The translations under genes were made by a program, and so were the position numbers. Below are positions 1 through 8,139 of a DNA stretch of 8,139 nucleotides, one piece after another. The notes beneath the pieces were generated by a model. It ran no database searches. It was not told the DNA's origin and saw nothing but the letters and a program-made list of their open reading frames with translations. Positions within the stretch are counted from its first letter, which is position 1; every line of letters begins with the position of its first letter. Source of the stretch: Desulfobacterales bacterium. Its GTDB lineage: Bacteria > Desulfobacterota > Desulfobacteria > Desulfobacterales > BuS5. The DNA is taken from contig JAGVGX010000273.1 of NCBI GenBank assembly GCA_020056865.1, positions 1-8,139 on the forward strand, given 5' to 3'.

Positions 1-747
1 ATAATGTACCCCTTTTGCAAACACAATCACAGGCTCGTTGTTGCGTTTGATTTTGGAAATAATTTTTTCCATGTAGTATAAAGAAAATTCTTTAAAATGA
101 TCTTGAGAAAGGATCCCGCCCCATGTATCAAAAATTTGAACTGCATTGACCCCTGATTCAATTTTAGCGTTCAAATAATCGGCAGCAGCATCAGCAATTT
201 TGTCTAAAAGGCTATGGGCAAGTTTTGGATTGTTATAAATCAGGCTTTTTACTTTTGAAAATGTCTTTGAGCCTCTACCTTCCACCATATACGTTAACAA
301 TGTCCATGGAGAACCTGAGAACCCAATAAGTGGTACGCGTCCTGCCAATTCCTTTTTTGTAAGAGCCACAGCATCAAGCACATATTTTAAATCAACAAAC
401 GGATCAATATGCTTGAGCTTTTTAGCATCATCTTCAGTCCTCACAGGATGATTAAAAACAGGTCCTATTCCTTCGTTCATTTCAAGATGCATCCCCATGG
501 CTTCAGGAATTACAAGAATATCAGAAAAAATAATCGCTGCATCAACACCCATGATGTCAATTGGCTGCAACGTTACCTCAGCTACAACTTCAGGCGTTTT
601 ACACATGGTAAGAAAATCAAATTTATCGCGTACTTGTCTGTATTCAGGCAAATAACGGCCTGCCTGTCTCATTATCCATATCGGCGTTCTTTCAACAGGC
701 AACCGCCTGCAGGCACGCAAGAATAAATCATTTTTTAATTGGGTCAC
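1..747 (-). CDS. hemE: Uroporphyrinogen decarboxylase HemE (C-terminal part missing)
   Basis: Cytoplasmic enzyme that removes four carboxyl groups from uroporphyrinogen III to give coproporphyrinogen III in heme synthesis. Visible are 249 residues of a family normally about 340-355 long; the rest lies beyond base 1. The family signature MRQAGRYLPEYR is at residues 26-37 (substrate-binding Arg27 and Arg31). FSDIL is at 74-78, with Asp76 matching human Asp86, and Tyr154 in the PWTLLTYMVEG stretch matches human Tyr164. The constant offset of ten from human numbering supports a true HemE rather than a UroD-like methyltransferase. The start is GTG at 747, preceded by GGAGGAAAAGA as ribosome-binding site. 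The in-frame ATG codons lie inside the conserved region and are too late. The GTG overlaps the stop of the upstream TPR gene (GTGA), so translation is probably coupled. The visible part shows no damage. Confidence 0.96.
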   Translation of the reverse strand, partial: MTQLKNDLFLRACRRLPVERTPIWIMRQAGRYLPEYRQVRDKFDFLTMCKTPEVVAEVTLQPIDIMGVDAAIIFSDILVIPEAMGMHLEMNEGIGPVFNHPVRTEDDAKKLKHIDPFVDLKYVLDAVALTKKELAGRVPLIGFSGSPWTLLTYMVEGRGSKTFSKVKSLIYNNPKLAHSLLDKIADAAADYLNAKIESGVNAVQIFDTWGGILSQDHFKEFSLYYMEKIISKIKRNNEPVIVFAKGVHY

Positions 748-1382
748 TCTTTTCCTCCATCATTCTGTTTAAATTTCTTAAGTAATTCTGATACAGACAT
801 CCCACTTGGACTCATTGCATTGGGGTTAATTGCAACCAGGCCTTCCCATTCCTTGACAGCACCTTCAATATTATTTAAATCATGCATGAGAACGACACCT
901 TTATTAAAGCGTGATTGTTCATGGGAAGGATCTGCTTTAATTGCTTTATCAAAAGCAGCAATGGCTTCTGTAGACTGGCCATCTTTGCGATACATTACAC
1001 CCAGATCAGTAAGAACATCGGGATTGTTTGGATCTTTCTCAAGGTGTTTATTGTATGCTATAATCGCCTTTTCATGGTTGTTCGTATCAAAATAAAGATT
1101 GCCAAGCTGAAGCCATTGGTCAAATTTGGGTGGGCTTTCAGCAAGTTTTTTTTCAAGTTCAAAAATCTTTACCGCAAGTTCTGTAGGAACCGTCTGCTGT
1201 TTTTCAGCAGGCTCTTCCTGATGTTGATGCTGATCAGCAGCTTGAGATGGCACCTTGGAATTTGATTTATATACCGTTGTCATAACTCCCGCCAAAAAAC
1301 CTGCGATAAGCATTATAACAGCAACAATGATCACCGTTTCTTTTTTAACATAACCTTCTGTATTCCCCTTTTTTTCTCCCAT
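744..1382 (-). CDS. Membrane-anchored TPR protein between hemC and hemE
   Basis: A 212-residue protein of unknown exact role. A short charged N-terminus is followed by one transmembrane segment (about residues 16-38). Next come a Gln/His/Glu-rich linker (about 46-66), a short helix, and three consecutive tetratricopeptide repeats (about 86-119, 121-153 and 155-188, each ending in a DPN/DPS/NPN turn). Lys residues before the helix and none of the features of a cleaved signal peptide suggest an anchor with the TPR domain outside the cytoplasm. TPR domains bind protein partners. The layout recalls the TPR parts of cytochrome c maturation proteins of the CcmI/NrfG type, and the heme context makes that attractive, but this is inference. 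ATG at 1382 is preceded by AAGGGGAG at a short spacing. The last codons contain the hemE ribosome-binding site, and the stop overlaps the hemE start by 4 nt. Confidence 0.9.
   Translation of the reverse strand: MGEKKGNTEGYVKKETVIIVAVIMLIAGFLAGVMTTVYKSNSKVPSQAADQHQHQEEPAEKQQTVPTELAVKIFELEKKLAESPPKFDQWLQLGNLYFDTNNHEKAIIAYNKHLEKDPNNPDVLTDLGVMYRKDGQSTEAIAAFDKAIKADPSHEQSRFNKGVVLMHDLNNIEGAVKEWEGLVAINPNAMSPSGMSVSELLKKFKQNDGGKE
751..757 (-). promoter_or_regulatory. Ribosome-binding site of hemE inside the TPR gene
   Basis: On the minus strand GGAGGAAAAGA immediately precedes the GTG of hemE. It lies within the last codons (Gly-Gly-Lys-Glu) of the TPR gene. The strong GGAGG core decides the GTG start and, with the GTGA overlap, fits translational coupling. 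Confidence 0.75.
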
Positions 1383-1467
1383 ATGACTCCCCTTCTTTAA
1401 AATAAATTTTATTTTCAGTTATACCGTTTACATGTTTTTTAAGATAAATGCGATATGCTTTTCTATA

Positions 1468-1495
1468 AAAATAAGCCGTAAAACCGAGTTGTCAA
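1468..1495 (-). promoter_or_regulatory. Candidate sigma70-type promoter for the TPR-hemE pair
   Basis: Minus strand: a perfect -35 hexamer TTGACA (1490-1495) and a -10-like TATTTT (1468-1473, 4 of 6 matches) are separated by 16 nt, in the 147-nt spacer between hemC and the TPR gene. It would give a leader of roughly 75-80 nt before the ATG at 1382. The -35 is convincing; the -10 is imperfect, and nearby AT-rich hexamers (for example TATAGA) are alternatives with poor spacing. If real, TPR-hemE can be transcribed independently of hemC. Confidence 0.4.
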
Positions 1496-1529
1496 CATAC
1501 ACAATGCCTTGATAAAGCTTCATGTTACG

Positions 1530-2471
1530 CTACGCCATACGAACGGTTCTGTAAATCTCCTCTAATATTTCTTTTGCGCCGGCTTTTAGTAAATCATCGG
1601 CCAATCTTTTCCCAAGATTTTCCGGCTCTTTCTTGCTGCCTCTTATTTTTTTTCTGTATTGAATGGTTCCATCTATCGAACCGACACTTGCAAAAAGATA
1701 TAATCCGTTTGACTTTACCTCGGCATAAGCACCTATGGGTACCTGGCATCCGCCTTCAAGGGCTTTTAGCAGAGCCCTTTCTGCAGTCACTGCAATACAT
1801 GTGTTCTCGTGGTGTATTGACTGGAGGATTGCATCTGCAAATGTATTGTCTCTTTTTATCTCTATGCCTAAAGCACCCTGCCCTACTGCAGGAACAATTT
1901 CATTTATGTCAATAAAAGATGAAATGTGTCGGCCCAAGTTTAATCTTTCAACACCGGCCCTGGCGAGAATGATTGCATCCCAGTCGGAATCAATAAATTT
2001 CTGAATACGTGTAGGAACATTTCCACGCAAATCAATGACGTGTATATCCGGACGCAAATGCTTTATCTGAGAGCCCCTGCGTAGCGAACCTGTTGCAACT
2101 GTTGCGTTATCCGGTAGCATTTTAATGGTAATTCCATGTTTTTTTGCAATTAAAACATCCTCAACTTCATGACGCCTTGTAACTGCGGCAAGTTTTAAGC
2201 CTTCAGGTATTTTTGTTTCCAAATCCTTAAGGCTGTGTACGGCAATATCTATATCGCCGTTAAGCAGTTCTGTTTCAAGTTCTTTTGTAAAAAGGCCTTT
2301 GTCACCAATTTTTGAAAGTGCTACATCAAGTATCTTGTCTCCCTTGGTATTAACCAGTTTGGTTTGTACTTCGACATCTTTATTGTATTTTTCGATTTCA
2401 CTTTTTACATAACTGGTTTGCCATAAAGCCAAATCACTGGAACGTGAACCTATAATCAACCGTTTTTTCAT
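1530..2471 (-). CDS. hemC: Hydroxymethylbilane synthase (porphobilinogen deaminase) HemC
   Basis: Cytoplasmic enzyme that joins four porphobilinogen units into hydroxymethylbilane, using a covalently bound dipyrromethane cofactor. The 313-residue length is normal. Numbering from the ATG at 2471, key residues fall almost exactly where E. coli has them. Asp83 in AVHSLKD is the catalytic Asp. Arg131-Arg132 in GSLRR, and Arg149 and Arg155 in LRGNVPTR, bind substrate and cofactor. Cys242 in LEGGCQVPIG carries the cofactor. PAVGQGALGIE (194-204) is also intact. The alternative ATG at 2477 would add two residues but sits only 2 nt from the AGGA box, so the second ATG is preferred, though its spacing of about 10 nt is slightly long. 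It lies 108 nt behind the 18-heme cytochrome gene, in the same direction. The loop after the catalytic Asp departs from the usual KDVPT and PRDA wording. Confidence 0.97.
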   Translation of the reverse strand: MKKRLIIGSRSSDLALWQTSYVKSEIEKYNKDVEVQTKLVNTKGDKILDVALSKIGDKGLFTKELETELLNGDIDIAVHSLKDLETKIPEGLKLAAVTRRHEVEDVLIAKKHGITIKMLPDNATVATGSLRRGSQIKHLRPDIHVIDLRGNVPTRIQKFIDSDWDAIILARAGVERLNLGRHISSFIDINEIVPAVGQGALGIEIKRDNTFADAILQSIHHENTCIAVTAERALLKALEGGCQVPIGAYAEVKSNGLYLFASVGSIDGTIQYRKKIRGSKKEPENLGKRLADDLLKAGAKEILEEIYRTVRMA

Positions 2472-2528
2472 AAACACATTGTCCTGTTTTTTGATGGTAT
2501 GTAACCATTATTGAAGTTTAACGCATAC

Positions 2529-2579: not shown

Positions 2580-4859
2580 TTATTTTCTTACAGCTTTGCC
2601 TCTTTTATCAGGATAATGAAAATATTGATATCTTAAAAGAGCATCTGTTCCATGACAGTCGATGCAAACGGTTTTATAGCTTAGGGTTCTTAGAAATTTT
2701 CCATTTATTTTGTTTTGCTGTTTTTCCTGTCCTTCCTTTTCCTTAAGGCTCCACTGGTGAGCATTATGGCAAGAAGGGCAGGAAATATCTCCACTATTTA
2801 CTTCTTTGCCATCTTTATCAAAAATAAGCGTATAATCTTTTATTTCTCTGTTAAACTGCATAATATTATTAATTAATTTGCCTTCAGGATGTGTTGCTAT
2901 AATCGGAATTTTGTTTTCTGCGCTTTTCCCCTTTTCATGGCAGCTTCTGCATAAGGCATTCATTGTGCTTTCCGACTCGACGATAGAACCATAGGGCAGC
3001 GCCCAGAGTTTTAACTTATTAGGGCTGTTGTGCACCAAATGGCACGCCCCGCATTGCCCGGAAGCCTTTACTGTCTGGCCAAGCAAATTCGCAGCTTGTG
3101 GAGCGGTTATATTAAGATCGTGAGCAGTCCCGTCAACCATTGATTCTTTAACATGGCATGTTTTACAAAGTTCGGAGGACGGAAAATTTGCTTTTCTTAA
3201 AAAACTGTTTGTGGCATCCCCTTCTTCATTTTTATATGCATCGTTTGAAATCGTACTGGTTTTACCAGGAGCCCAGGTATGGGGTTCGTGGCAGGTCAGG
3301 CAAACCATTTTCATATCCCCTTGTTTCATATCCTCTTGTTGATTGCCATCACTGTCATACAGGGGTAGCACGCTTAAACCTTTTTTCTTTGCTTCGTCCA
3401 TATTCAGTCTTTCCAGCATGACATCAACCGGGTGATAGTTATCGCCTATGCCTTTTTCTTTTGCAGCACCCTCTGCGTTGTGGCAACCGATACATAACTG
3501 AGTTACAACATCCTTATTGCCGGCCAAGGGCTTACTCCACAGCCCTTTACCTGCAGCATTGTGAACAATGTGGCAGGCACCGCAAGGCCCGGAAACAGAA
3601 GCTGTGAATTGCTGCATGTTTTTTTCATCCGGTGCGGTTATAATTAAGTTATGGTCGGAACCCATCAGTTGCTTTTTATTCTGATGACATTCTATGCACA
3701 ATAAGGATGAAGAACTGTTTGACATCCTTAAAAAACTGTTTGAAGCATTACCTTCAATATTAATACCGCCTCGATTGGCTGTAGAAGCTGGGTCCCACCG
3801 ATGCACCTCGTGACAACTGAAACACTGAATCCGGCCTTTCTTGTTTCTCGTCAATTCCCCTGAATATAAAGGCAGCGAGGTTGCGCTGTAATCCTTTAGT
3901 ACAACAGGTTCAATATTAATAGGATGCGAAAAATCACCTGTATTTTTTGTATTGTATCCCGAGTTTTTATCATGACACGAAAGGCACATCTGAGCCGCAG
4001 GATCGCCGGCCCCAAGACGCCTTGCCCACAATCTTTTACTGGCCCCATTATGCGGGGTATGGCATGCTCCGCAAGGTCCTGCCTCAGAGGGCTTTTTACT
4101 TTTTATATTTTTTTCATCCGGCAATGACGTCGAAAGATCGTGTTTTGTGTCTATAATGTATTTTTGTTTTTCATGGCACATCATGCAAAGTTCTGATTTT
4201 CTGTTATCAATAATAACAATGTTATCTCCTTTTGCACCATGCGCTTTATGGCATGACTGGCAGATAATTTTATCTTTCTGCTTCGCCTGTTTACCCCCTG
4301 ATTCAAAAAGTATTTTCGGCAAATTCATTTCACCGGCAGCTAAAGGATGACCGTTGTTATTTTTATAATTGCCCTCACGAACATGACACATTTGGCATAA
4401 AATTGAATCGGTTTTATCTTCTCTGAAAAATGATGTAATTCCCGTGCGTTCATCAGGAGCAGATCCAATCCCATGTGGAGAATGACATGTTCCGCAATAG
4501 ATTTCATCTTTATTGCTTAAAGGAAGCGAAGATGGAATGCTGACATTGTCTGAAGGTTTTACAAACACCTTATGCCTGTTGTATTTCCATGCAATTGCCC
4601 GTGAATCATTTACATAACCATCATGACAGCTGTAACATATTTCTTCAGAGCTGACCACACCTTGGGTATCCTTCATGAGAACATTTCCCGGTTGCCAGGG
4701 AATCAATGTCTTTTTTTCTGTCCTGAAATCGTTAAGCCACATAATATGACAAATCGCACAGTCTCTTTTTGAAGACATTTCCAAGGCTGAAATCGCTGGG
4801 GGTAAGCACCCTAACGCAAACATGATACATAAACATATATTTATTTTTATTTTGAGCAT
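2580..4859 (-). CDS. Secreted 18-heme c-type cytochrome (doubled CXXCH family)
   Basis: A 759-residue multiheme electron-transfer protein with 18 CXXCH sites, starting at residues 34, 75, 122, 155, 200, 225, 263, 292, 346, 388, 426, 456, 520, 565, 603, 637, 694 and 732. A hydrophobic N-terminus (about 4-25, ending PAISA) is a signal peptide, so hemes are attached outside the cytoplasm. From heme 3 on, every odd heme reads CXXCHXXH and every even heme plain CXXCH, the doubled-CXXCH pattern. Four related four-heme blocks can be seen (hemes 1-4, 7-10, 11-14, 15-18), with an extra pair 5-6. LGC at residues 17-18 is a poor lipobox, so a lipoprotein is less likely. The start is ATG at 4859, or TTG one codon earlier; a stop lies directly before, and no clear ribosome-binding site is visible. 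It probably accepts electrons from the membrane cytochromes encoded upstream. Periplasmic versus surface location is unknown. Confidence 0.95.
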   Translation of the reverse strand: MLKIKINICLCIMFALGCLPPAISALEMSSKRDCAICHIMWLNDFRTEKKTLIPWQPGNVLMKDTQGVVSSEEICYSCHDGYVNDSRAIAWKYNRHKVFVKPSDNVSIPSSLPLSNKDEIYCGTCHSPHGIGSAPDERTGITSFFREDKTDSILCQMCHVREGNYKNNNGHPLAAGEMNLPKILFESGGKQAKQKDKIICQSCHKAHGAKGDNIVIIDNRKSELCMMCHEKQKYIIDTKHDLSTSLPDEKNIKSKKPSEAGPCGACHTPHNGASKRLWARRLGAGDPAAQMCLSCHDKNSGYNTKNTGDFSHPINIEPVVLKDYSATSLPLYSGELTRNKKGRIQCFSCHEVHRWDPASTANRGGINIEGNASNSFLRMSNSSSSLLCIECHQNKKQLMGSDHNLIITAPDEKNMQQFTASVSGPCGACHIVHNAAGKGLWSKPLAGNKDVVTQLCIGCHNAEGAAKEKGIGDNYHPVDVMLERLNMDEAKKKGLSVLPLYDSDGNQQEDMKQGDMKMVCLTCHEPHTWAPGKTSTISNDAYKNEEGDATNSFLRKANFPSSELCKTCHVKESMVDGTAHDLNITAPQAANLLGQTVKASGQCGACHLVHNSPNKLKLWALPYGSIVESESTMNALCRSCHEKGKSAENKIPIIATHPEGKLINNIMQFNREIKDYTLIFDKDGKEVNSGDISCPSCHNAHQWSLKEKEGQEKQQNKINGKFLRTLSYKTVCIDCHGTDALLRYQYFHYPDKRGKAVRK

Positions 4860-4896
4860 CAATTAGTGATACTTTGATCATAAAAAAAGTTTTTTG

Positions 4897-5826
4897 TTAG
4901 TCTAACAGCTTGGATACACTTATTTTCCCCGCTCTCATTTCCACAACATGCAAGCTTTGTTTTTTATCATCGATAGTCATTCCCACAGGTGTTACAAACT
5001 GTCTGTTTTTACCTTCTTCACAAACAACTCCAAAAAAGCGGCCATCATCAGAAAAGACCTGTATAAAACCCATGTAACTATCACTGATATAAACCCTGTT
5101 GCGTTTATCCACCGCAACGCCCTTGGGCCTGAAAAGTTTTCCTGGAAGCACACCCCAGGAACCAATATCTGCTATAAAATTGCCAAAAGGATCAAACTTC
5201 TGAACCCTGGTATTGAGCACGTCAACAACAAAGATTTCATTAAATTCGTTGATTGCCATAATCCCTGGATACCTGAACTGCCCATGATCTTCCCCAAAAC
5301 TCCCCCATTCAAACTCAAAAATACCGTTTTGGCTATATACCTTAATTTTATGATTATCATTATCCGATACATATACATAATTTTTAAGCTTTGATACCAG
5401 CACATCAACAGGATCCGAGGGTTTTTCATCCGGGCCTGATTTTACGGCGAACATATAGTCAAATTCACCTTTTAGATTAAAAACCTGTATCCTGTGGTTA
5501 CCTGAATCCGCAATAAAGACCTTACCACTATCAGATATGTCAATACCCAGCGGATAATCAAACTCTCCTTTGCCTGCTCCTTTTTTCCCAAAGTTAAATT
5601 TTGATCTGCCCTTACTGTCAAAAACTCTGATTTTATGGTTTACCCCATCAACCAGATACATATCTCTGTTTGGCGCAATCGACATATCGCTGGGCTGATC
5701 CGCGCCTGTTTCAACCTCAAAAAGGGGTTTGATTTTCACACAGTCTTCAGGATAACAGACACCCGACATAAGTTGAGTAAAAAGAAATAAGCCGAGACAT
5801 GCAGCAACATGTTTGATTTGAATCAA
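4897..5826 (-). CDS. Secreted six-bladed NHL-repeat beta-propeller protein
   Basis: A 309-residue protein with an N-terminal signal segment (about 6-24) followed almost entirely by NHL repeats. Six repeats are visible, at about 44-74, 91-121, 138-169, 186-216, 233-263 and 279-307, with the recurrent core (P)xGIxIxxxGxxxxxDxxNHxIQVF. The sharpest is blade 2, with FIADSGNHRIQVFNLKG at 104-120. This count fits a closed six-bladed propeller. NHL propellers usually serve as protein- or ligand-binding platforms, and no catalytic residues or heme sites are seen. The start is TTG at 5826, chosen because AGAGGT lies six bases upstream and no ATG occurs before the repeats. It starts 10 nt after the triheme gene, and the ribosome-binding site overlaps that gene's TAG. 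Position between two cytochromes suggests a docking or assembly role in the electron-transfer module. The Cys at 24 lacks a proper lipobox (V at -1). Confidence 0.92.
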   Translation of the reverse strand: MIQIKHVAACLGLFLFTQLMSGVCYPEDCVKIKPLFEVETGADQPSDMSIAPNRDMYLVDGVNHKIRVFDSKGRSKFNFGKKGAGKGEFDYPLGIDISDSGKVFIADSGNHRIQVFNLKGEFDYMFAVKSGPDEKPSDPVDVLVSKLKNYVYVSDNDNHKIKVYSQNGIFEFEWGSFGEDHGQFRYPGIMAINEFNEIFVVDVLNTRVQKFDPFGNFIADIGSWGVLPGKLFRPKGVAVDKRNRVYISDSYMGFIQVFSDDGRFFGVVCEEGKNRQFVTPVGMTIDDKKQSLHVVEMRAGKISVSKLLD

Positions 5827-5836
5827 GCGGTAACCT

Positions 5837-6715
5837 CTATTTTACAACTTTTTGGCTATTTTTTGTTTTTAATTCGCCTGACTCGGACTCCTGAAACAGA
5901 TTTGGCAGGTAAAAATCTTCATACTTGGTAATCATTCCCTTTATATTTAACTGCTCTAAATCTAATATCCTTTTATCAGCAAATCCAAGTTTACTAAACT
6001 GCAATATGCTGTCTTTGGAATGACATATTTTGCATTCATGACCTTTGGGCTTTATGCCAACATGAAATTTATTTTTAACACTGTCTCTTTGCTCAGGCGT
6101 CAGTTTATCCCTGACTTTCATGTAGTCCTTGGCCAAAGGGGCATCTTGTTTCTGGATTTCCGATTCCAGTTGATCCCCTTTTACAAGATATGGCGCTATT
6201 TTGGAAAACAGATCCTCAACTTCAACAAGCGCACCTGATTCAGCATCATAACTCGTTCCAAAAAACGGCCCTTTTGGATCCGTTTGAAAAGGGTCATACC
6301 ATTTGTACACAACGACTTCTTCTTTTTTGTTCTCAATATGGCATGTTTCACATACAAAAAACTGGGTATGAATATTTAAAAGAGATCTGACCTTTTTGCT
6401 TTTATTATGCGGATAATCAGAATGACAGATATAACATACAGGCCGGTCTTTTTCAGGAAGTTGAGGAAAATCAGCAATATTATGAAAATGCCTGTGAATC
6501 TCAAATTCTTCTGAAAGATTTGCTTCTTCCAATATAACTGACCTTTCTTCCTGCTGCAATTTTTCTTTTAATGGCAATAAAAGTCCTGGACCATGCGACG
6601 ATAACGTGAAATGGAACCCAACACATGTAGTAATGGATATCATAATAACAATAAAAAACAGGCTAATAAAATACACAACAAAAGGATGATTTAATCTTTT
6701 TGGTTCGTTTTTCAC
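5837..6715 (-). CDS. Membrane-anchored triheme c-type cytochrome
   Basis: A 292-residue protein. A basic N-terminus (KNEPKRLNH) and one hydrophobic segment (about 11-38) form an inner-membrane anchor with the rest in the periplasm. Three heme sites are present: CYICH at 94-98, CETCH at 122-126 and CKICH at 228-232. About 100 residues without a heme site lie between hemes 2 and 3, rich in Asp, Glu and Lys. Many extra His (74, 76, 78, 103, 116, 218, 226) could serve as sixth ligands. I do not recognise a named family; the spacing does not look like four-heme NapC/NrfH. The start is GTG at 6715, 2 nt after the stop of the cytochrome b gene, with GGAGGG nine bases upstream inside that gene's last codons. 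Probable role: relay from the cytochrome b to the soluble multiheme protein (inference from gene order). Confidence 0.9.
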   Translation of the reverse strand: MKNEPKRLNHPFVVYFISLFFIVIMISITTCVGFHFTLSSHGPGLLLPLKEKLQQEERSVILEEANLSEEFEIHRHFHNIADFPQLPEKDRPVCYICHSDYPHNKSKKVRSLLNIHTQFFVCETCHIENKKEEVVVYKWYDPFQTDPKGPFFGTSYDAESGALVEVEDLFSKIAPYLVKGDQLESEIQKQDAPLAKDYMKVRDKLTPEQRDSVKNKFHVGIKPKGHECKICHSKDSILQFSKLGFADKRILDLEQLNIKGMITKYEDFYLPNLFQESESGELKTKNSQKVVK

Positions 6716-6717
6716 TT

Positions 6718-7752
6718 CTAAACGCCCTCCATGGTATCAGGATGTAAAAGATTTTCAGTTACTTCTGAAGTGCTCTTTTCCGACTTAACATCGTCAACAT
6801 AAAACCCATTTTCCTTTAAAACGTCTCTTAAATATTCTTGTTCTCCGGGTATTTCTTCCAAATTTCTGATATATTCCAGGAAATGTTCTTCCATTTGATG
6901 TTCTCTGGTTATTTTACCGGTTAAAAAAGACCATTGCAGGGGGAATCTTCCAGGAACCACATGAACATTTGTCCAGTGCCAGAAGGCAACGACGATAAGT
7001 GCCATAATCGCTTCATCCACATGCATTAACCTTGCAAGATCTTGTATAAAGGTTGGAAGTGCAGTAAAATTGGCAAGGGTTTCAGAAAATATTTTAACCA
7101 GACCGTCAGGAAAAATTATCATTAACATATCTGGAAACAGGTTAGAGGTAATCTCGGGAAACAACAATGCCGAACCTGCAGTCAACAACACCGTGTTACC
7201 CCATAAAATTGCAAGATAATGCATCTTTTGTTTATACATAAATTTTTCCATTTTCGGGCGATACGGTTCTTTACCAAGAAAATATTTTAAATCAGCGATA
7301 AAATCATAGAGGTCCTTTAAACGGGGAATCTGCGTCCGTTTATAGTCAAATTTGCCACGTTTAATCTTTTGAACCGTTCCTGCGATAATCGTCGAAACAT
7401 GATATACAGAAGAAAACACCATAATAGACGCACCAACTCTATGAATAATTCTTGCTGTATCGGGTCCTCCAAGCATAGAGACAATATAAGGTGCCCAGAA
7501 CAGATCGCTGAAATAAAGCGGCAGTCCGGTTAATGCAAGCGTGAGAAAGCTTACGAACACCATGATATGTTGAATAACAATGTGAATGGAATATCTCGGC
7601 AAATCACCCAAAGGATCGGACAGAACATATCTATAGATATCCCTTGGAATAACGCCTACACCTTTAACATGCGTAAAAAAATCATCCTGAAGCATGTCTT
7701 CTTTATTATACTTGGGTTGCGTAGGTACAGATTCTGATATTGTTACCGGCAT
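6718..7752 (-). CDS. Four-helix membrane cytochrome b, formate dehydrogenase gamma/FdnI-like
   Basis: A 344-residue inner-membrane protein with four hydrophobic helices, at about 57-82, 102-125, 178-198 and 244-266. Helix 1 carries the IQHIMVF...ALTGLPLYF pattern typical of cytochrome b subunits of formate dehydrogenases and hydrogenases. Candidate heme ligands are His57 or His62 in helix 1, His104 or His118 in helix 2, and His244 and His259 in helix 4. That distribution fits the two-heme FdnI scheme. Charged tails of about 55 residues (N-terminal) and 75 residues (C-terminal) are probably cytoplasmic. Such subunits exchange electrons between periplasmic partners and the quinone pool. No dehydrogenase or hydrogenase catalytic subunit is visible nearby; the partners here are c-type cytochromes. 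ATG at 7752 follows AGGAG at good spacing, 18 nt after the upstream cytochrome gene. Family placement is firm; physiological partner and electron direction are inferred. Confidence 0.93.
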   Translation of the reverse strand: MPVTISESVPTQPKYNKEDMLQDDFFTHVKGVGVIPRDIYRYVLSDPLGDLPRYSIHIVIQHIMVFVSFLTLALTGLPLYFSDLFWAPYIVSMLGGPDTARIIHRVGASIMVFSSVYHVSTIIAGTVQKIKRGKFDYKRTQIPRLKDLYDFIADLKYFLGKEPYRPKMEKFMYKQKMHYLAILWGNTVLLTAGSALLFPEITSNLFPDMLMIIFPDGLVKIFSETLANFTALPTFIQDLARLMHVDEAIMALIVVAFWHWTNVHVVPGRFPLQWSFLTGKITREHQMEEHFLEYIRNLEEIPGEQEYLRDVLKENGFYVDDVKSEKSTSEVTENLLHPDTMEGV

Positions 7753-7770
7753 AAATTCTCCTGTCTTTCG

Positions 7771-8139
7771 TTATCGTGATTTGATGTTGGATCTGCTTTT
7801 TTTCACGCCTCGCCAAGATGTACCTTGTTTTAACTTCCATTTGATACCATCTTTTCTCCTTCGATATACTTCAATAGACAAAAGGGCTAAAAAGCTGGAA
7901 ATAGTACCATACAATGCACAAGTTAAAAGAACACTCAACGCATGTAAAACAGGTGTTTCCCTGTGATCAGCACTGGGATGAACGGCAATCTGTATAAAGT
8001 TCTGATTGACTCTCACATGACATTGGCGGCAGGTTTTTTCAAGATTGTCTTTATTAACCGTAGACTTTTTATCATCTTGTTTATAAATATCATGAAGTGA
8101 ATTGGTAGAATGACAGCTTATACAATCCGGGGCCACCTG
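7771..8139 (-). CDS. Membrane-anchored multiheme cytochrome c, C-terminal part only
   Basis: The reading frame is open to the window edge, so only the last 122 residues are seen and the true start is upstream. Two heme sites are visible: CISCH, five residues in, and CRQCH about 30 residues later. Then come an HPSADH stretch with possible axial His, one hydrophobic segment (LHALSVLLTC to LALLSIEVY), and a very basic tail of about 34 residues rich in Arg and Lys. The charge pattern places the heme domain in the periplasm and the tail in the cytoplasm. A C-terminally anchored cytochrome c directly followed by a cytochrome b recalls the CbcA-CbcB pair of Geobacter sulfurreducens; this is an analogy from gene arrangement, not shown homology. 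A GTG near the edge is inside the heme domain and is not a credible start. Confidence 0.88.
   Translation of the reverse strand, partial: QVAPDCISCHSTNSLHDIYKQDDKKSTVNKDNLEKTCRQCHVRVNQNFIQIAVHPSADHRETPVLHALSVLLTCALYGTISSFLALLSIEVYRRRKDGIKWKLKQGTSWRGVKKSRSNIKSR

Follow-up and report, generated by a model that had tools for sequence, protein, structure and literature searches.

In sulfur-metabolising syntrophs, the electron route between the quinone pool and outer-membrane conduits is an open question in the field. The stretch of DNA analysed here (the window; 8,139 nt of contig JAGVGX010000273.1 from a Desulfobacterales bacterium) holds a compact set of genes for membrane-bound and secreted cytochromes, and raises the question of what such a set would connect. 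We find that the cassette is most likely a quinone–cytochrome complex of the CbcL kind supplemented by a triheme protein, a propeller and a wire of 18 hemes, a conserved arrangement with which uncultured sulfur-metabolising bacteria probably pass electrons between membrane quinones and a large multiheme wire. The cassette, in which a CbcL-like core is linked with a large cytochrome and, in Nitrospirota, also with a conduit, names specific candidate proteins for this route.

Organization of the five-gene cassette

The five genes are sequentially organized on the minus strand, and the coordinates, order, strands, spacers and heme counts of the original prediction were all reproduced. The first gene is represented by an A fragment (7771..8139; 122 aa, two CXXCH motifs and one transmembrane (TM) stretch) whose frame is open at the window end and which, judged from full-length relatives, corresponds to the C-terminal third of the cytochrome. 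It is followed by B, an FdnI/CbcL-type cytochrome b (6718..7752; 344 aa), and T, an N-terminally anchored triheme cytochrome c (5837..6715; 292 aa, GTG start, three CXXCH motifs, N-terminal TM helix). The last two genes encode NHL, a secreted six-bladed beta-propeller (4897..5826; 309 aa, TTG start, signal sequence, Pfam PF01436 with E 1.3e-25), and M, a secreted 18-heme cytochrome c (2580..4859; 759 aa, 18 CXXCH motifs, PF09699 with E 8.6e-37). The spacers measure 18, 2, 10 and 37 nt, the last counted from the ATG of M at 4859, which is used here as its start; the ORF list gives a TTG at 4862.

On the same strand, 3' of the operon, window positions 1-2477 hold hemC (TIGR00212), a gene for a TPR protein and hemE (TIGR01464, over cut-off). 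A heme-synthesis link of hemC and hemE to the operon was considered and dropped, as no hemC, TPR or hemE match was found among the ORFs of loci L001-L112.

Conservation, distribution and copies of the cassette

Protein searches at E 0.001 returned 1191 proteins related to B and 479 related to T, the best 120 of each being listed; the T relatives among the best 120 of 479 share 60% identity or more. A single genome scan found 42 loci, which by title comprise 26 Nitrospirota-like loci (two titled Deferribacteres and two BMS3) and 16 Desulfobacterota-like or "Deltaproteobacteria" loci; 40 of the titles begin with MAG and the other two are BMS3 bins. L018 and L026 belong to one genome, and the carriers number 41.

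Gene neighbours were counted around T over the loci with data, the others of the 42 ending first, and after unlabelled ORFs of less than 130 aa had been dropped. B is next upstream in 38/40 loci and A precedes B in 38/40, a strict count that leaves out L032, in which a 7-heme neighbour takes the place of A and B was not called. Downstream of T, NHL comes next in 31/38 loci and M second in 27/35; beside A-B-T, NHL is missing in seven of 38 loci and M in eight of 35. Eighteen CXXCH motifs are present in 21 of the 23 M calls without an open end, the exceptions being a 72-aa piece beside a 17-heme ORF and a protein with 22 motifs. The five-gene arrangement is not a product of chance, and the co-occurrence in related genomes on which the original prediction depended is borne out by the positions of B, NHL and M around T.

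In a tree of 41 T proteins, the window groups with L004, L005, L015 and L024, all Desulfobacterales-like, with support of 96/86. Type-I T (E 1e-80) occurs in three of 198 sampled Nitrospirota. A second A-type gene follows M on the same strand in 14/42 loci, as read from the locus listing, and in most of these it opens a whole second cassette whose M has 19-20 hemes; other copies run A-B-T(-A-B-T)-T5-NHL-M24. More than one T match is listed in 35/41 carrier genomes, some of these matches being pieces of one gene. The M homolog at L128:11777-16693 is 1639 aa long, has 38 CXXCH motifs and adjoins a B-T fusion and genes for 25- and 16-heme proteins.

A and B, a probable CbcL-like core

Full-length A relatives span ~350-380 aa, carry 6-7 hemes and are anchored C-terminally; among 36 complete relatives, 23 have six CXXCH motifs, 12 have seven and one has five. 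B had been described as an FdnI-type cytochrome b, an assignment carried by weak matches. Both TIGR01583 and structure comparison point to it, yet the TIGR01583 match (E 4.9e-8) scores 33.2 bits against a cut-off of 115.85, so the threshold of this FdnI/HydC model is not reached, and the Pfam matches fall below gathering. The best Foldseek match of the B model is 1kqf_C (prob 1.00, E 0.021), from an AlphaFold model with a pLDDT of just 55; the value for T is 46, and both are of low confidence. Sequence searches of the PDB with single cassette proteins gave no useful match. B contains invariant histidines, which may ligate its b hemes.

The B profile also matches the b domain of proteins with the CbcL layout. 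The C-terminal part of A and B align, in this order, with single ORFs that contain nine CXXCH motifs followed by a b domain; of 12 regions retrieved for this comparison, six contain such an ORF (L139, L140, L141, L143, L144 and L145). According to an excerpt of PMC9129911, residues 30-279 of CbcL carry nine c hemes, and its b domain has six helices and two hemes. This ordered alignment, together with the A-B fusions described below, places the A-B core, as judged by sequence, among the CbcL-type c/b quinone oxidoreductases, a known kind. In CbcL of Geobacter sulfurreducens, as in A-B, a c domain precedes the membrane b domain, and like CbcL, the cassette would work at the boundary between quinone and periplasm. 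In contrast, CbcL is one polypeptide with nine c hemes, whereas A and B are two genes in most loci and A has 6-7 hemes (35/36); T, NHL and M lie beyond the CbcL layout. The earlier statement that the set is not a named system therefore holds for the set as a whole, since literature searches for the five genes found no paper describing it, but not for its core.

Pairs of A and B as separate genes, with 7-13 hemes in A, are common in the sampled phylum; a cytochrome with 15 or 16 hemes comes after some of them, and neither T nor NHL was matched there. Six loci (L083, L149, L150, L082, L108 and L110) hold repeated A-B pairs ending in such a 15-/16-heme cytochrome, possibly another multi-copy quinone module. 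GC-rich loci were read by six-frame scan.

T marks the subtype and is fused with its neighbours in some genomes

T carries three CXXCH motifs at 40/42 loci. One segment of T resembles the Shewanella octaheme cytochrome 1sp3 (TIGR04315 family), the T profile matching residues 209-280 of that chain (E 1.4e-4); unlike 1sp3, T is anchored in the membrane and carries three hemes, and its TIGR04315 match is far below cut-off. At E 1e-5, T is found in 21 and B in 111 of 297 sampled genomes, and at E 1e-19 or better T is found in 18 of the 297, 17 of which also have B. Since T is rarer than B, plain A-B pairs occur without T, and nearly all genomes with a strong T match have B, T is, judged from this distribution, the defining subunit of the cassette subtype. 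Spread of the cassette by plasmids was rejected, as a plasmid search with T gave no match.

The three membrane-associated genes are also found joined. A and B are fused in G225 and G075 (six hemes) and, in shorter forms possibly broken at the 5' side, in G249 and G334. B-T fusions are present in G036, G038, G057 and G112, the last of which also has an A-B-T triple fusion in one 889-aa ORF with nine c hemes (L079 ORF 4; L071). B and T matches share one open frame in G235, G244, G280, G288 and G334, and an A-T fusion without B is seen in G018. These fusions come from MAGs and single ones could be assembly errors, but their number and order suggest that assembly error is not the general cause. 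As the fusions follow gene order, and as the TM segments of A (at the C-terminal end) and T (at the N-terminal end) fit beside B, the A-B, B-T and A-B-T fusions argue for a single A-B-T membrane complex.

Linkage to a candidate outer-membrane conduit in Nitrospirota

The original prediction suggested that the module may support extracellular or interspecies electron transfer, and the evidence on this point divides by lineage. A 26-heme protein is detected at E 1e-90 in 21/25 Nitrospirota carriers and in 4/16 Desulfobacterota-like carriers (36-39% identity). A homology search with the 26-heme protein, scored over the 7997 candidates that shared most words, yielded few names. T and the 26-heme gene lie on one contig in ten genomes, within 20 kb of each other in seven (G007, G011, G014, G017, G021, G023 and G497) and 78-781 kb apart in three (G006, G022 and G037); in the remaining genomes they are on separate contigs, which are uninformative on linkage. 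In G021 and G497, the cassette and the conduit genes are on one strand. The 26-heme gene has as neighbours a 16-heme gene and genes for a PPIase, for LpoB/CsgG-like proteins and for a family of 746-785 aa whose members end in Phe and gave no Pfam match. From the protein ends, we infer that this family is a candidate porin and the 26-heme protein a lipoprotein.

This neighbour set resembles an operon core reported from SEEP-SRB1, for which an excerpt of PMC5539420 gives a 16-heme protein, a 26-heme protein, a PPIase and a propeller, and which was later called Oet (PMC10553843, in part). In Nitrospirota loci, the set likewise has a PPIase, 26-heme and 16-heme genes and a candidate porin (the porin of Oet being OetI), and the match to the core, propeller included, is by features only; the likeness concerns the neighbours of the cassette and not the cassette itself. 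All three T carriers among the 198 Nitrospirota have the 26-heme gene, versus 18/198 overall (hypergeometric 6e-4, kinship not removed), and 18/18 Nitrospirota with the 26-heme protein carry dsrA, versus 85/198 overall (E 1e-110; kinship not removed).

Among the four genomes nearest the window, the 26-heme gene is absent at E 1e-30 in G005, G015 and G024, and G004 holds it only as a broken piece of 35% identity. The MtrB/PioB porin, over cut-off in just 5/41 carriers, was rejected as a partner of the cassette. Because the cassette is often within 20 kb of the conduit-like set, extracellular transfer appears well motivated in Nitrospirota carriers, whereas for the window's own lineage, whose nearest Desulfobacterales relatives lack the conduit set at threshold, only a role between quinone and periplasm is supported.

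Taken together, we consider it fairly likely that A-B-T is a CbcL-kind inner-membrane bc complex exchanging electrons between menaquinone and the 18-heme M, that NHL positions M, and that the path continues outward in Nitrospirota. B would hold the quinone-reactive b hemes and be flanked by the membrane anchors of A (6-7 hemes) and T (three hemes), both of which would place their hemes in the periplasm. M, presumably the direct partner of this complex, would serve as a wire in the periplasm, with the NHL propeller holding it or setting its position. In Nitrospirota, the wire would most likely continue into the porin/26-heme/16-heme outer-membrane conduit next door, giving a quinone-to-outside path.

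Alternative roles and neighbouring genes

We regard it as unlikely that the cassette is instead a diverged version of Cbc5 (CbcEDCBA) from Geobacter and hence nothing more than a member of a complex already known. Three c-type cytochromes and one b-type cytochrome occur in Cbc5 as in the cassette (PMC11434368, in part), the c and b subunits being separate proteins encoded in a single cluster beside further cytochromes, and CbcBA has been proposed as the quinone link in Seep-SRB2 (an excerpt of PMC10553843). The fifth gene of Cbc5, however, is described in the same excerpt of PMC11434368 as a membrane protein, CbcE, where the cassette has a secreted NHL propeller with a signal sequence; the order A-B-T-NHL-M18 differs as well, T and M being set against CbcC and CbcD by description only. 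Moreover, the repeated A-B pairs with a 15-/16-heme protein in Desulfobacterota have no T or NHL match nearby. We assign still less probability to the module being the electron-transfer arm of an oxidoreductase encoded elsewhere, such as a molybdopterin enzyme. Genes for a molybdopterin oxidoreductase, an FeS protein and a TorD-like protein lie directly upstream in L018 and L033, with a partial oxidoreductase gene in L040, and DsrP-like and FeS genes follow M in L032. The molybdopterin family is nevertheless near the cassette in only 3/42 loci, as grouped by clustering with a Pfam name for L018 only, a count taken with the window cut off upstream and many loci also ending short. In relatives, the cassette starts with A and not with a dehydrogenase, which agrees with the view of a quinone-to-periplasm module without a catalytic subunit of its own.

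Equally improbable is that the module takes the place of Qrc in sulfate reduction, reducing menaquinone with electrons received from periplasmic cytochromes. This reading would fit the presence of dsrA over cut-off in 37/41 carriers and the absence of QrcD over cut-off from all 25 Nitrospirota-like carriers. However, dsrA is common by lineage (84 of the 198 Nitrospirota), and every one of the 16 Desulfobacterota-like carriers has QrcD over cut-off, which makes simple substitution impossible there and rules out a Qrc substitute as the general role. For the Seep-SRB link between quinone pool and conduit, Qrc or CbcBA has been proposed (PMC10553843, in part). Within the preferred reading of a CbcL-kind complex feeding an 18-heme wire, a further step is tentative and rather doubtful: in dsr-bearing Nitrospirota, a locus of ~30 kb, counting A-B-T, the 18-heme wire, the 16-heme protein, the porin, the 26-heme lipoprotein and a two-component system, could be a whole quinone-to-outside path, which may draw electrons from minerals or from partner cells to reduce sulfite or sulfate without Qrc.

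Downstream of M in L032 (10264-14509) are genes for a 4-heme cytochrome, an FeS protein, a DsrP-type NrfD over cut-off and an 8-heme cytochrome. Some Nitrospirota cassettes are flanked by genes for a single-CXXCH histidine kinase and a sigma-54 response regulator (8 and 11 loci, counted from clusters, with both proteins named for L007). The L007 kinase gene (5949-7457) adjoins the cassette, and its product contains an Mcp40H-20-like sensor (below gathering) besides the single CXXCH motif.
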